Assembly (NCBI RefSeq): GCF_000430045.1 | Contig: NZ_KE387023.1 | Location: forward strand, 1,653,316-1,702,371 | Direction of reading: 5' to 3' | Source: Calidithermus chliarophilus DSM 9957 | GTDB taxonomy: Bacteria > Deinococcota > Deinococci > Deinococcales > Thermaceae | Length of the DNA: 49,056 nt | Shown: positions 8,246-48,833 of the stretch, one piece after another | Numbering within the stretch: position 1 is the first letter of the stretch | Layout: each line of letters begins with the position of its first letter | Translations under genes and position numbers: made by a program | The notes under the pieces: model-generated | Told to the model about the DNA's origin: nothing | Databases searched by the model: none | The model's input: only the letters and a program-made list of their open reading frames with translations

Positions 8246-8278
8246 GGGAGGTGGAGCGGAAGGCCCGTGGATCGTGGT

Positions 8279-8456
8279 TGCCCCTCCCCAGCCCTCCCCG
8301 CCGGAGGGGAGGGTTTATCCCCCCCAGCCCCCCTTGCTAAGGGGGGTGACAAGGCGTCTTGCGTTTGGCGTTCGGCGTTCGGCGTCTCGCGTACGACGTA
8401 CGACGTACGACCCGCGCCCGGCGTTCGGCTATGGGCTATCGACTATCGACCATCAC
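8279..8456 (+). repeat. Mosaic intergenic repeat, copy A
   Basis: The convergent space between lysA and the CvpA gene is filled by repeat modules. In order: GCCCTCCCCGCCGGAGGGGA, CCCCCCTTGCTAAGGGGGG, the GGCGTTCGGCGTT words, tandem GTACGAC words ending in GTACGACCCGCGCCCGGC (8405-8422), and CTATCGACCATC (8443-8454). The same modules recur in the same order at 45460-45699 and in part at 21736-21915, and in reverse at 14857-15122 and 25185-25366. Confidence 0.8.
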
Positions 8457-14856: not shown

Positions 14857-15122
14857 GCCGGGCGCGGGCGCGGGTCGTGCGTCGTACGTCCTACGTCGTA
14901 CGCGAGACGCCGAACGCCGAACGCCAAACGCCAAACGCCAAACGCCAAATGCCAAACGCCAAATGCCAAATGCCAAATGCCAAATGCCAAATGCCAAACA
15001 AATGCCAAATGCCTTGTTCCTCCCTTGGCAAGGGGGGTTAGGGGGGATAAACCCTCCCTGCCGGCGGGGAGGGGTTTACCATGAGCTTCCCGCTTACCGC
15101 TGAAGGCTGATGGCTGAAAGCT
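14857..15122 (-). repeat. Mosaic intergenic repeat, copy B, with a long 7-mer array
   Basis: The modules of copies A and E appear in reverse order: a near copy of GCCGGGCGCGGGTCGTAC, GTACGTCCTACGTCGTACG, then about fifteen tandem 7-mers of the AACGCCA/AATGCCA type (about 14905-15013), then the GGCAAGGGGGGTTAGGGGGG and CCTCCCTGCCGGCGGGGAGG modules, and finally CTTACCGCTGAAGGCTGATG. It fills the space between the pheS leader and the 3' end of the VanW gene. Confidence 0.8.
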
Positions 15123-19763: not shown

Positions 19764-19839
19764 TCCACGGTAGCTCAGTCGGTAGAGCGGTCGGCTGTTA
19801 ACCGATTGGTCGCAGGTTCGAGTCCTGCCCGTGGAGCCA
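19764..19839 (+). tRNA. tRNA-Asn (anticodon GTT), CCA encoded
   Basis: A full cloverleaf can be drawn: acceptor TCCACGG/CCGTGGA, D stem GCTC/GAGC, anticodon stem GTCGG/CCGAT around CTGTTAA (anticodon GTT), T arm GCAGG-TTCGAGT-CCTGC, discriminator G and encoded CCA. It is flanked by a strong promoter and a terminator. Confidence 0.97.
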
Positions 19840-19875: not shown

Positions 19876-19876
19876 A

Positions 19877-20002
19877 TACCGGATTCAAAAAGATAATCAT
19901 CCAAACCAAAGACCCCCAGAGGCTATCTTTTTGAATCCTAGAGTACTCCCTTCGGTCGGGTTAGTTCGCCGCCGTTCGGCGCCGAACTAACCGAATCTGG
20001 TA
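19877..20002. mobile_element. MITE-like element, copy 1 (126 bp)
   Basis: The ends TACCGGATTC and GAATCTGGTA are inverted repeats with one mismatch, and TTA stands on both sides (19874-19876 and 20003-20005) as a likely target duplication. Inside are two hairpins: GGATTCAAAAAGATA/TATCTTTTTGAATCC and CGGTTAGTTCG/CGAACTAACCG type. A second, longer copy lies at 37020-37190 with the same ends and the same TTA flanks. There is no coding capacity. Confidence 0.85.
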
Positions 20003-20073
20003 TTACGATTGCTCTTCGCCCGGCGCCGGGTCGGGGCTCGACGCGGCGCGCTGATCCGAGGCGGGAGGCGACG

Positions 20074-21735: not shown

Positions 21736-21915
21736 AAGCTTCTAGCTGTCAGCCGTCAGCGGTAGGCTCGTGGCCTGTGGCGCTCGAGGTCTAGGGTCGA
21801 GAGTCTAGGGTCTAGGGCTAAGGCGTACGACGTACGACGCAGGACGTACGACGCTGGGCGCAGGACGTACGACCCGCGCCCGGCTATCAGCTATCGGCTA
21901 TCGACCATCGACTAC
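21736..21915 (+). repeat. Mosaic intergenic repeat, copy C
   Basis: The modules in order are AGCTGTCAGCCGTCAGCGGTA, tandem GTACGACGC/GGACGTACGAC words, GTACGACCCGCGCCCGGC (21867-21884) and GGCTATC words ending with CTATCGACCATC (21898-21909). The CCCTCCCC and CTTGCTAAG modules are missing. It lies directly upstream of the DUF985 start codon, so its end may serve as that gene's 5' region. Confidence 0.75.
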
Positions 21916-25184: not shown

Positions 25185-25366
25185 GATGGTCGATAGCCGA
25201 TAGCCGGGCGCGGGTCGTACGTCCTACGTCGTACGTCATACGCAAAACGCAAAACGCCAGATGCGGGACGCAAAACGCAAGACGCCTTAGCCCTCGGCTC
25301 TCGACCCTCGACGGCGGTTCACCACGAGCCTCCCGCTTTTCGCTGACGGCTGACGGCCTAAAGGCC
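25185..25366 (-). repeat. Mosaic intergenic repeat, copy D
   Basis: The modules are in reverse order: GATGGTCGATAG (25185-25196), GCCGGGCGCGGGTCGTAC (25203-25220), GTACGTCGTACGTCATACG, a run of CAAAACGC/CAAGACGC 7-mers, and finally CGCTGACGGCTGACGGCC. It fills the convergent space between the hydrolase and tsaE and reaches the tsaE stop codon. Confidence 0.78.
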
Positions 25367-36855: not shown

Positions 36856-37873
36856 CGATGTGCGTCTCGCTTTCGATAAAGGTCTTGATGAGCTCGGTGA
36901 TCCGCTGAGGTTGCGTACGTATTTCACTCTCCCAAACCACCAAGACGCGAATTCCTGCTTCGGCCAATTTCTGGATCCTCCGGGCGTCCTTATGCCATTT
37001 CTGTGCTGCCGTCATCTTATACCGGATTCAAAAAGATAATCATCCAACCCAGAACCCTGGAGGCTATCTTTTTGAATCCTAGAGCACACCCCTCCCTGAC
37101 GGTCGGCGAAGCAAGCGTATCCCTTCGGTCGGCCGCCCCGCCTTGGCGGGGCGGCGTCACCGTTCGGTGACGAACTAACCGAATCTGGTATTAAGGGACT
37201 CGTTGTAATACTCGGGCCGAAACAGCCGGGGGTTGCAATGCCAGAAGTCGCCGAAGCACTCGATGGCTTTCCCAGTTTCTAGCAGAAAGTCCACGTTATA
37301 ACGCCCGATCTGCTTGTTTTGCTCGTATTCCACCCCCATCTGATCGAGGACGCGAGCTACCCAGGTCTCGGGCTCAGTTTTCGAGGAGCGTTTGCTGGCC
37401 CGTTGCCCGACCTCGATAAACTTCTTTAGCAGCTCGTATTTCCTTTCTTCGCTGATGTTGGACCACCATTTCTTCCGTGCCTCACTGGCTTTCGCTGGGT
37501 CGCGACACCCGCCTTTGTAGGTGGCCTTATCACGGGCGGCTTGAGCGAGGCGCATCCGCTGCCGTGTCTCGTGAGAATGTTGTTTCCCGTAGAAGCTGTT
37601 CGCCACGCCCGAGCGCTCGAGGCATCGCTGACAGCGCGCTCCCCTTGTTTTTCGGTGTAGGGTTTTCCCGCAGCCGGAACACCTCCGGCCCGTGCGCCCT
37701 TTCCACCTGGGGTTGCGTTCCATCGGCAGGCCACAGGATTTGCGCACGTCCGGGTCCATCAAGGGTAGCCCAGGGTGACGCAGGCGGTATTCCTGCGGGC
37801 TTATGCCGGAGCACGGCTTGAGGTGCCGGAAGTTAATGCTACGCACCTCTTGCCCGCACTCGGCACAGCGCAT
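36845..37873 (-). pseudogene. Vsr-like homing endonuclease with NUMOD3 motif, disrupted by a MITE
   Basis: The 5' part (37873 to 37194) encodes MRCAECGQEV, a second zinc-knuckle pair (CSGCGK..CQRC), a NUMOD3-type DNA-binding motif SFYGKQHSHETRQRM, and a Vsr/EDxHD nuclease core with KTEPETWVARVLDQMG, GRYNVDFLLETG and ECFGDFWHCNP. At YYNESL the frame enters a MITE (37020-37190) and soon stops at 37175. On the other side the frame resumes as KMTAAQKWHKDARRIQ, ending WESEIRTQPQ...HIDAD with a stop at 36845. Removing the element and one TTA restores YYNESLKMTAAQKW in frame. The last 11 nt overlap the rtcB start. A MVLY start at 37894 is an alternative. Confidence 0.88.
37020..37190. mobile_element. 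MITE-like element, copy 2 (171 bp), inserted in the endonuclease gene
   Basis: Ends TACCGGATTC and GAATCTGGTA are the same as in copy 1 (19877-20002), and TTA flanks both sides (37017-37019, 37191-37193). The first 60 bp are nearly identical to copy 1. The middle carries about 45 bp more, with extra palindromes (GCCGCCCCGCC-TT-GGCGGGGCGGC and GTCACCGTTCGGTGAC). It has no coding capacity. Confidence 0.88.
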
Positions 37874-38250: not shown

Positions 38251-38281
38251 GACCCTGAGCCCGCTAGGGTGACACAGCTCG

Positions 38282-38440
38282 GCCCGTCCTTGGTGCTGTG
38301 GCGCGTAGCCGCAGCTTAAAGTGGGGAAACCGGTGAAGCCCGCAGGGGCCAGTCCGGTACTGTCGCGCAACGGTGAGGGTGCATTGGGACCGACCTCCGG
38401 TCACCGCCTCGAGTCCGAATACCTGCCAAGGAGCCTCCCG
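38282..38440 (+). promoter_or_regulatory. Cobalamin riboswitch aptamer
   Basis: The conserved core of the B12 aptamer is readable: GGGGAAACCGGTGAAGCCCG, then GCCAGTCCGG, the B12-box-like ACTGTCGCGCAACGGTGA, and the 3' CCGAATACCTGCC. The position before btuF and the rest of the B12 genes fits. CCGAATAC (38415-38422) can pair with GTATTCGG (38477-38484) downstream, giving a possible alternative fold that links the aptamer to the terminator. Boundaries are approximate. Confidence 0.92.
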
Positions 38441-38504
38441 ACCCGATTAAGGAGGCACCTCTCGCAAGAAGGGGGAGTATTCGGGGAACCACCGCTTTTC
38501 GGAT

Positions 38505-44727: not shown

Positions 44728-45437
44728 TGCGCCCCTTCTGGCTGGCCCTGGGCTTCCTCACCACCTTCCCCGTGCCCAGCCTGGGCGAGGTCCGGCCCGG
44801 GGAGATGCGGGCCGCCTCGGCCTTCTACCCGCTCGCGGGGTACTGCGTGGGCGGGGCGCTGGCCCTGGCCGCCTGGCTCACCCAGCCCCTGCCCGACGGC
44901 TTGCAGGGCGCGCTGCTGCTGGCGGTGTGGCTGGGGCTCACCGGGATGCTCCACCTCGACGGCCTCCTCGACTCCGCCGACGCCCTGCTGGCCATGCGCT
45001 CCCCCGAACAGCGCCTGAAGATCCTCTCCGACGTGCACCTGGGCAGCTTCGCCTTCGGGGTGGGCTTCGTGCACCTGCTGCTCAAGTGGCAGCTCCTGGC
45101 CTCCGGGCCCTCCCCGTGGCTGCTGCTGTGCCTCCCGGCCGTGGTGCGCTTCGCGCTGCTGGTGCCCATGAACCTCTACCCCGCCGCCCGCCCCGAGGGC
45201 CTGGGGGCGCGCTCGAGGGAAGGCCGCCTCGCCCCGGCCCTGCTCTTCACCCTCCCCGCCCTGGCCCTATTCCCCTGGCCCGCCCTGGCCGTCCTCCTGA
45301 CCACCCTGCTCCTGGCCCGCTGGGCCGCCGCACGCCTTGGCGGCGGCCTCTCCGGCGACGTGTACGGCGCGCTGGTCGAGGTAGGGGAGAACGCCGGCCT
45401 GCTGGTGGGGGTATGGCTGGTCGGGCAGGGCGGTTGA
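44727..45437 (+). CDS. cobS: Adenosylcobinamide-GDP ribazoletransferase (cobalamin synthase)
   Basis: A 236-residue membrane enzyme joining adenosylcobinamide-GDP and alpha-ribazole. Motifs: ALGFLTTFPVPSLGEV, AASAFYPLAGYCVGGAL, GMLHLDGLLDSADALLAMRS (the acidic Mg site) and VHLGSFAFGVGFV. About six hydrophobic segments follow. The ATG overlaps the previous stop (TGATG). It is the last B12 gene; with CobU, CobT and CobC the nucleotide-loop pathway is complete in this window. Confidence 0.94.
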   Translation: MRPFWLALGFLTTFPVPSLGEVRPGEMRAASAFYPLAGYCVGGALALAAWLTQPLPDGLQGALLLAVWLGLTGMLHLDGLLDSADALLAMRSPEQRLKILSDVHLGSFAFGVGFVHLLLKWQLLASGPSPWLLLCLPAVVRFALLVPMNLYPAARPEGLGARSREGRLAPALLFTLPALALFPWPALAVLLTTLLLARWAAARLGGGLSGDVYGALVEVGENAGLLVGVWLVGQGG

Positions 45438-45459
45438 AGGCTTGTGGGGACCTCTCCCC

Positions 45460-45699
45460 ACCGGCGGTAAGCCGTCAGCTATCAGCTTTCAGCCGTCAGC
45501 CTTCAGCGGTAAGCGTGTGGCTCTTGGTAAACCCCTCCCCGCTGGCGGGGAGGGGATATCCCCCCTAACCCCCCTTGCTAAGGGGGGAACCAGGCGTTTT
45601 GCGTCTTGCGTCTTGCGTACGACGTACGACGTACGACCCGCGCCCGGCTATCGGCCATCGGCTATCAGCTATCGACCATCGACTATCGACCATCGACCC
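45460..45699 (+). repeat. Mosaic intergenic repeat, copy E (most complete)
   Basis: All modules are present in order: GGTAAGCCGTCAGCTATCAG and TTCAGCGGTAAG words, CCCCTCCCCGCTGGCGGGGA, CCCCCCTTGCTAAGGGGGG, GCGTTTTGCGTCTTGCGT words, tandem GTACGAC ending GTACGACCCGCGCCCGGC (45631-45648), and CTATCGACCATC twice (45669-45680, 45683-45694). It lies in the convergent space between cobS and the amine oxidase gene. Confidence 0.85.
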
Positions 45700-45702
45700 C
45701 AA

Positions 45703-45731
45703 CGAAATAACCCCCCGCAACTCCCGGGGGG
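45703..45731 (-). terminator. Terminator of the amine oxidase gene
   Basis: CCCCCCG (45711-45717) and CGGGGGG (45725-45731) form a 7-bp stem with a 7-nt loop; on the minus strand it is followed by TTATTTCG. It lies 19 nt after the stop codon. Confidence 0.75.
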
Positions 45732-45749
45732 CCTTCACTCCAAAAGAGG

Positions 45750-47036
45750 CTACAACGCCTTGGCCACCGGCTGGGCGAACTCCGGCAGGGCCAGCGTCGG
45801 GTTGCGCAGCGCCAGCACTTCCTGGGCGGCCCGGCGGCCGCTTTGCAGGGCCCCGTGGACGGTCCCCGCCCAGGCGTTGGAGGCGGTGCCTTCCCCGGCC
45901 CAGAACAGCTTTTGCTCGAGCGGCCGCGCCAGGATGGCTCGAGCGTCGGTGGCGCCTGTGACGGCCATGCTGTAGGCGCCCAGGGCGTAGGGGTCGTCCT
46001 GCCACTGGCTCCAGGTCCGGGCGCCGGGGGTGAGGTCGGGGCGGCCCAGGGCCTGGCGCAGGGTGGCGAGGCCGGCCTCGAGCGCGCCCTCCTGGCCGAG
46101 CTCGAGCAGCCGCCGCGCCTTCGCCCCGGCGGCGAAGGCGGTCATGACCTCGCCGCCGTAGTCCTGGCCCTTCGAGCTCGACCACCACTCGTCGGGCAGG
46201 CCGCCGCAGACGTACAGCCCGTTGACGCCCTCGGGGAGGACGGGCTGCTCGAAGCGGTAGACCAGCTTGAGCACCGTCGCCACGCCCAGCCGCCGCAGCG
46301 CCGAGAGCTTCCACTCGGGCAGCTCGGGCAAGAAGCGCACCTTCCCGGCCTTGAGCACCCCCACCGGCAGGGTGATCACCGCCTGGTCGGCGCTGTAGGC
46401 CCGGCCGTCCTTGAGGATCACCGTCACGCCGGGGCCGCCCCAGGCGATGGTGTCTACCACGGCGCCCAGCTCGACGTCGAGCCCTTCGGCCAGGGCCTGA
46501 ACCACGCGGTCATAGCCCGGCAGGGGGCGGTAGTCGCCCTCCTCCGAGGTGGGGTCGAGCATGAACTCGAGCGCGGCCCGGGCCGAGAGCTGCTCGGGGT
46601 CGCCGTAGTCGGAGACGTACTCCTGCATCTTGTAGGGGGCGCGGTGCGCGTCGAGGCCCAGGCGCTGGAGGTAGGCCGCGACCGACTCCTCGCCCTGCGC
46701 CTCGGGCCAGCCCAAAGCCCGCACGCCCGAAAAACAGACTTCTTCGCCCACCGTGCGCAAACGGCCGTCCGGCAGGCGGATCCAAAGGTCGCTCTGCTGG
46801 TTGATGTAGTGAGTTTTGATCTGGTGTTGGTTGAGGATTTCCCAGGTGGGAACCACGCTGGTGTGGACGAACTCGGCCCCGAGTTCGACCGGAACCCCCG
46901 CGAAGTCGCGGTCGGTGTGGATGCGTCCTCCGACGCGGTCTCTGGCTTCAAGGATTCGGACCTTGTGTCCTGCTGCCGTGAGGTCTTGGGCTGCGGCCAA
47001 ACCCGCAATACCGGCTCCGATCACGAGCGTCGTCAT
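45750..47036 (-). CDS. Flavin monoamine oxidase family protein
   Basis: A 428-residue FAD enzyme. The dinucleotide motif is [17 protein letters not shown], then [15 protein letters not shown] and [11 protein letters not shown]. Late motifs are [17 protein letters not shown] and [20 protein letters not shown] (the FAD-binding end with a Gly-rich turn), typical of the amine oxidase/polyamine oxidase group. The amine is unknown; a polyamine is plausible for a thermophile. The gene lies downstream of metY on the same strand with 327 bp between. AAAGGTG precedes the ATG. Confidence 0.9.

Positions 47037-47363: not shown

Positions 47364-48833
<1,470 letters not shown>

Follow-up and report, generated by a model that had tools for sequence, protein, structure and literature searches.

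A composite repeat of heptad arrays and triplex-type motifs in the intergenic spacers of Calidithermus chliarophilus

The intergenic spacers of Calidithermus chliarophilus DSM 9957, a thermophilic bacterium of hot springs, are densely populated by a composite element that is expanded in Calidithermus and unites two known kinds of bacterial repeat, 7-bp (heptad) arrays and G/C-rich triplex-type motifs. Our analyses lead us to consider it probable, though well short of certain, that this element is a non-coding repeat that grows by 7-bp slippage, spreads by patchwork recombination rather than by cut-and-paste, and is tolerated near stop codons.

Copies in the window

The window, i.e., the whole stretch of 49,056 nucleotides that was analysed (C3:1653316-1702371 in the 4.69 Mb genome), had been read from its letters alone as carrying one mosaic repeat at five loci. 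These copies, with the modules of the one at 45460, are laid out as follows.

45460-45699, +: mosaic element in the convergent spacer from cobS (+, end at 45437) to an amine-oxidase gene (-, its stop at 45750)
45466-45514, +: module A, heptads GGTAAGC CGTCAGC TATCAGC TTTCAGC CGTCAGC CTTCAGC GGTAAGC; TRF period 7 at 45470-45507
45515-45528, +: module A3, heptads GTGTGGC TCTTGGT (TCGTGGC-type)
45532-45555, +: module B, G/C-rich hairpin CCCCTCCCCGC-TG-GCGGGGAGGGG, without upstream pyrimidine block
45560-45587, +: module C, apparent full triplex motif CCCCCC-TAA-CCCCCCTT-GCT-AAGGGGGG
45596-45616, +: module D, heptads GTTTTGC GTCTTGC GTCTTGC; TRF period 7
45617-45637, +: module E, GTACGAC heptad three times; found by TRF
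45631-45648, +: exact 18-mer, made of the last GTACGAC, a CCGC spacer and GCCCGGC
45649-45697, +: module F, heptads TATCGGC CATCGGC TATCAGC TATCGAC CATCGAC TATCGAC CATCGAC; TRF period 7/14
8272-8456, +: copy A3-B-C-D-E-K-F between convergent genes, an Orn/DAP/Arg decarboxylase-family gene and a gene of no assigned family
14857-15122, -: copy with B, C and some 13 D units (GTTTGGC/ATTTGGC) in a long array, downstream of a VanW-domain gene
21736-21915, +: copy with B2 heptads (GTCTAGG/GTCGAGG) replacing the hairpins, between DUF2227 and cupin_5 genes
25185-25366, -: copy A-A3-D-E-K-F, no B/C hairpin, between convergent S9 peptidase-like and tsaE genes

The 18-mer is exact at four loci (8405, 21867, 25203 on the minus strand and 45631), as that reading had stated, and CTATCGACCATC is found at the same four; at 14863 (-) the 18-mer is broken by three mismatches and an extra GCGCCC. 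When up to three mismatches are allowed, seven occurrences are seen in the window against 0.32 expected by chance. The module order proposed for all five loci is indeed common to them, but the B and C hairpins stand at three only (8279, 14857 and 45460); their place is taken by (GTCTAGG)n at 21736 and by a (TCGAGGG/TCGAGAG)-type stretch at 25185. Three of the five, at 8279, 25185 and 45460, lie between convergent genes, in line with the original description.

Elsewhere in the window we observed a tRNA (19764-19836, +), a cobalamin riboswitch upstream of the cob gene region (38274-38444, +) and a SAM riboswitch near a Cys/Met-metabolism PLP gene (48677-48831, -). A second repeat, ATACCGGATTCAAAAAGATA...GAATCTGGTAT, with 11-bp imperfect ends and internal hairpins, occupies 19876-20003 and 37019-37191; its seed has 34 exact copies in 1.2 Mb, similar copies occur in Calidithermus roseus, and some copies adjoin mosaic elements or lie within them.

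Number, order and periodicity in the genome

The genome contains 66 exact copies of the 18-mer (35 forward and 31 reverse) and none of a reversed control, so that the 18-mer is enriched well outside the window; among 60 relatives examined, C. roseus NBRC 110900 is the sole carrier, with 12 copies. Stretches amounting to about 1.2 Mb of the genome were read, and the lag and module scans covered 1.17 Mb, in which 192 element loci were recognised, none of them in called coding sequence; these coding/non-coding counts rest on approximate gene calls made by a codon-usage script. From the 48 loci in an unbiased 392 kb, we estimate about 570 loci per genome. The consensus order is A, A3, hairpin B or B2, hairpin C, D, E, CCGC-GCCCGGC and F, and the heptad modules are composed of the following words.

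A: (NRTCAGC/GGTAAGC)n
A3: (TCGTGGC)n
B2: GTCKAGG heptads, standing where hairpin B otherwise sits
D: (GTYTTGC/GTTTGGC/GTTCGGC)n
E: (GTACGAC/GTAGGAC)n
F: (TATCGGC/TATCAGC)n then (YATCGAC)n

Across the 192 loci this order is nearly fixed (B1 before C 86:0, C before D 119:0, E before K 73:3), and no order between B1 and B2 was ever recorded, which fits their being alternatives. Taken with the 66 copies of the 18-mer, these counts bear out the dispersed, ordered mosaic that the sequence-only reading had recognised.

Except for its two hairpins, the whole element consists of heptads. The lag scan detected 156 self-similar regions at lag 7, of which none was predominantly coding, and 74 at its harmonic, lag 14, against a single region each at lags 2-6, 8 and 10-13 and two at lag 9, one of which is mostly coding; thus, by both the lag scan and TRF, 7-bp units exceed all other unit lengths, as in the heptameric intergenic simple sequence repeats (SSRs). 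Growth by slippage had been suggested from short imperfect tandem words; the periodicity at 7 bp only, and the different copy numbers in orthologous spacers (see below), agree with slippage, but the words prove to be all of 7 bp. Alternating GCGTCTT/GCGTTTT heptads form a 14-bp higher-order unit in arrays at C3:304076, 423366 and 556857.

We considered whether the heptad words are shared across phyla, and this candidate was set aside: three successive NRTCAGC words occur in 8 of 249 Pseudomonadota compared with 4 of 249 for the reversed pattern, which is weak, and the corresponding 6 versus 0 comes from a small, non-random sample, the 38 genomes to which 18-mer loci had led. Short tandem heptads were also seen in an E. 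coli plasmid, pYPE3-114k (TATCGAC), in a Pseudoalteromonas plasmid (CATCAGC/TTTCAGC/CGTCAGC) and in a haloarchaeal plasmid (CATCGAC). D-type heptads are found inside a C. roseus ORF (ARFVLMN-KDALRRTQDAKR) and in a Meiothermus-group ORF with matching AIRQTQDAKR, both in a putative aminoacyl-tRNA-synthetase-like context, and in the ORF of one further stretch (L233) they encode a 7-residue KTPDAKR-type repeat.

The triplex core

In modules B and C, a C-rich block and a short linker precede a C-rich/G-rich hairpin, and on this layout they appear to match the G/C-rich intrastrand-triplex motif BoxC/PIT/TM (PMC4666352), which likewise joins a pyrimidine block, loop and purine block to a further block, is intergenic and is tied to instability. 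In 112 of the 115 C modules the pyrimidine block and its complementary purine block are joined, past the short linker, by the third block; among the 80 B stems scored, 47 have a second pyrimidine block, CCCC[TA]CCCC, directly upstream, which gives the triplex layout. Read on the complementary strand, the C linkers are mostly AG, GG, TAA and TGG; TAA and CGG-type linkers here mirror the second-loop sequences, TTA or CCG, of the described motif (PMC4666352). The Calidithermus motifs differ in standing up to two in tandem inside heptad arms, and their blocks are not those of the E. coli TM. Pairing of hairpin B was scored over 957 consensus cells, of which 28 are compensatory, 11 one-sided and 44 broken; as the scoring favours paired placements, this covariation gives mild support for conserved pairing. 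Sequences similar to C also occur on cyanobacterial plasmids and in 22 stretches of viral contigs, which a widespread motif would lead one to expect; a candidate link between module C and such plasmids is accounted for by C being the known triplex motif.

E. coli loci bearing the triplex motif rearrange more, and the motif leaves no in vivo footprint there (PMC4666352); in earlier work, as far as it is quoted in that paper, it arrests polymerase in vitro and has neither promoter nor terminator activity. In Calidithermus the motif is coupled to heptads: lag-7 similarity appears in the flanks, up to 150 bp away, of 224 of 238 C matches (counted on both strands of a self-complementary pattern, hence about 119 sites) and of 1 of 26 triplex sites sampled outside Thermaceae. 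Loci with C have a median of 12 heptads and loci without it 6 in the unbiased 392 kb (p=0.002), or 12 versus 8 overall. Longer heptad tracts beside the triplex core agree with a stall-and-slip model, short of proving it; the relation is a correlation, and loci without a core might be no more than fragments or decayed remnants of the element.

Placement relative to genes

The intergenic, convergent-biased placement seen in the window holds genome-wide. Of 188 classifiable loci, 69 (37%) lie in convergent and 22 (12%) in divergent spacers, which make up 18% and 23%, respectively, of spacers of at least 40 bp. The median distances to flanking stop codons are 26 and 12 bp, and those to starts 70 and 104 bp, while the orientation of the element is random (97/95). 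Such a placement is compatible either with tolerance at gene ends or with a function there. Terminator prediction placed no U-tract terminator within the 45460 element; the one predicted lies just outside it, at 45709-45733 on the minus strand, and no promoter-like site was found in 45400-45800.

Change between species and spread of copies

C. roseus is roughly 85-93% identical in most long aligned blocks. Clean orthologous spacers number 22: in 13, at least two of the same heptad words follow one another in a short chain, an arrangement seen in 1.4% of 150-bp coding windows as background, and in 9 they do not; heptads are therefore kept between the same genes at variable length, as in heptameric SSRs. 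Of the window copies, two have no counterpart in the orthologous C. roseus spacer, 14857 (where that spacer measures 46 bp) and 21736; for the copy at 8279, the spacer contains a diverged relative that lacks B and C. In the orthologous pairs read by eye, the junctions are ragged and display no obvious target-site duplication. Strict lag-7 regions number 3 in 497 kb of C. roseus versus 42 in 392 kb of the host; the C. roseus draft assembly could lose long arrays, but the spacers compared are contiguous.

All-versus-all exact matching of the 192 loci returned 167 pairs that share at least 45 bp, among which some are segmental duplications (C7:207 kb/799 kb; C3:1402.5/1403.7 kb) and others belong to a separate ATACCGGATTC repeat; the pairs were read individually, without class counts. 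In several pairs, exact tracts of 50-138 bp are common to unlinked loci or different contigs with differing flanks, and they end inside the element. For example, the loci at C7:207 kb and 209 kb have a 138-bp core in common although neither of its flanks agrees, and those at C7:724 kb and 923 kb carry the same characteristic 63-bp D/E run but diverge upstream of it. As sequences, these tracts are consistent with tract copying between elements. The dispersal that the sequence-only reading had proposed is supported, but its pattern looks like patchwork recombination and not like the hopping of whole units. A local gradient of gene conversion was rejected, core similarity being independent of distance (permutation 1420/2000).

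Discussion

The sequence-only reading could name no known family for the repeat, but parts of it match heptameric intergenic SSRs (PMC4692102, PMC4679880) and the intrastrand-triplex motif BoxC/PIT/TM (PMC4666352). Heptameric SSRs, such as GGGAATC in Xanthomonas, GGGGATT in Nostoc and TAACTGA in Beggiatoaceae (PMC4692102, PMC4679880), share with the element 7-bp units of limited degeneracy, a mostly intergenic location and a tendency to recur between corresponding genes of related species with variable length and sequence; however, the reports centre on one word, whereas in Calidithermus about seven words follow a fixed order around a core. Both parts are thus known kinds of bacterial repeat, and what seems new is the fixed-order chain of heptad words around triplex motifs, of which we found no description.

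How might such a composite arise? Arrays would lengthen and shorten in place through 7-bp strand slippage, which would explain their 7-bp length variation, and ectopic, patchwork recombination between copies would spread and homogenise the element, the copying of tracts accounting for the fixed module order. We infer that both processes are probably acting and that the element, selfish or neutral, is probably mainly tolerated where no promoter or gene is broken. It is tempting to hypothesize that polymerase stalling at the triplex core promotes slippage and template switching in the adjacent heptads. A bolder proposal, which we regard as tentative and rather doubtful, is that the triplex core is a generator of heptanucleotide arrays in cis: arrest at B/C would produce 7-nt slippage and template switching, the element would rewrite its own flanks, and seven would be a property of the polymerase and not of the sequence.

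High copy number, insertion in both orientations and absence from some orthologous spacers are also what one would expect of a non-autonomous mobile element, either a MITE or a repeat of the type of the small noncoding repeats (SNRs) of Deinococcus radiodurans, with a transposase acting in trans. The SNRs (60-215 bp; PMC1978522, PMC11276467) belong to the same phylum, are dispersed and are described as mosaic, one SNR4 copy-number difference has been reported among D. radiodurans strains (PMC11276467), and the D. radiodurans repeats in the 200 kb examined likewise contain CCCCTCACCCC / CCCTCTCCC blocks. Yet several of the latter have inverted TTAGAGCATTTGACAGAAT-type terminal sequences, and a repeat search and lag scan of these 200 kb found no lag-7 regions even under a looser lag setting. 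Since, moreover, no terminal inverted repeat was noticed in the Calidithermus copies read by eye, their junctions are ragged without obvious target-site duplication, and the breakpoints of shared tracts fall inside the element, we consider a mobile element unlikely. Mobilisation of REP/BIME-type palindromes by a RAYT (Y1 transposase) appears more improbable still. The element resembles REP/BIME and REPIN sequences in its palindromic G/C-rich core, its intergenic position near stop codons and its more than 100 copies, and the genome has 6 Y1_Tnp matches; but the element flanks none of the six loci (there is a D array in the vicinity of one), no alternating REP arrangement was seen, and fixed-order heptad arms are absent from the REP/BIME descriptions consulted.

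A selected function at gene ends, as a bidirectional transcription barrier or a stabiliser of mRNA 3' ends, would agree with the enrichment in convergent spacers, with the proximity to stops rather than starts, with the mostly paired hairpin B (28 compensatory against 44 broken cells under a pairing-biased scoring) and with RNA folding that beats shuffles (z -3.9). We nevertheless give it little credence, on a par with the mobile element: orientation is random, turnover between sister species is high, the 45460 element is devoid of an internal U-tract terminator, PIT/BoxC had no terminator activity in the earlier study as quoted in PMC4666352, and purifying selection on promoters would leave the same placement. 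Nor does long-range pairing between the A and F arms help this reading; it was rejected, for it is not locus-specific, own-locus duplexes being no better than swapped ones (-41.7 versus -42.2 kcal/mol). The folding score of z -3.9 is what would speak for a structured non-coding RNA family, which we hold to be very improbable given that element loci have no Rfam match, that the heptad arms vary freely and that 45400-45800 contains no promoter-like site.

Slippage and patchwork recombination at a tolerated, non-coding composite repeat therefore remain our preferred reading. Two poorly understood traits of bacterial genomes, their preference for 7-bp repeats and their wealth of instability-linked triplex motifs, are physically joined at hundreds of sites in this one thermophile, and the same coupling is nearly missing at triplex sites sampled elsewhere (224 of 238 matches against 1 of 26). 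With its natural series of cores and array lengths, this coupling makes the idea of slippage by polymerase arrest testable, and the element is a natural system in which to ask why the repeats of bacteria so often have units of seven.
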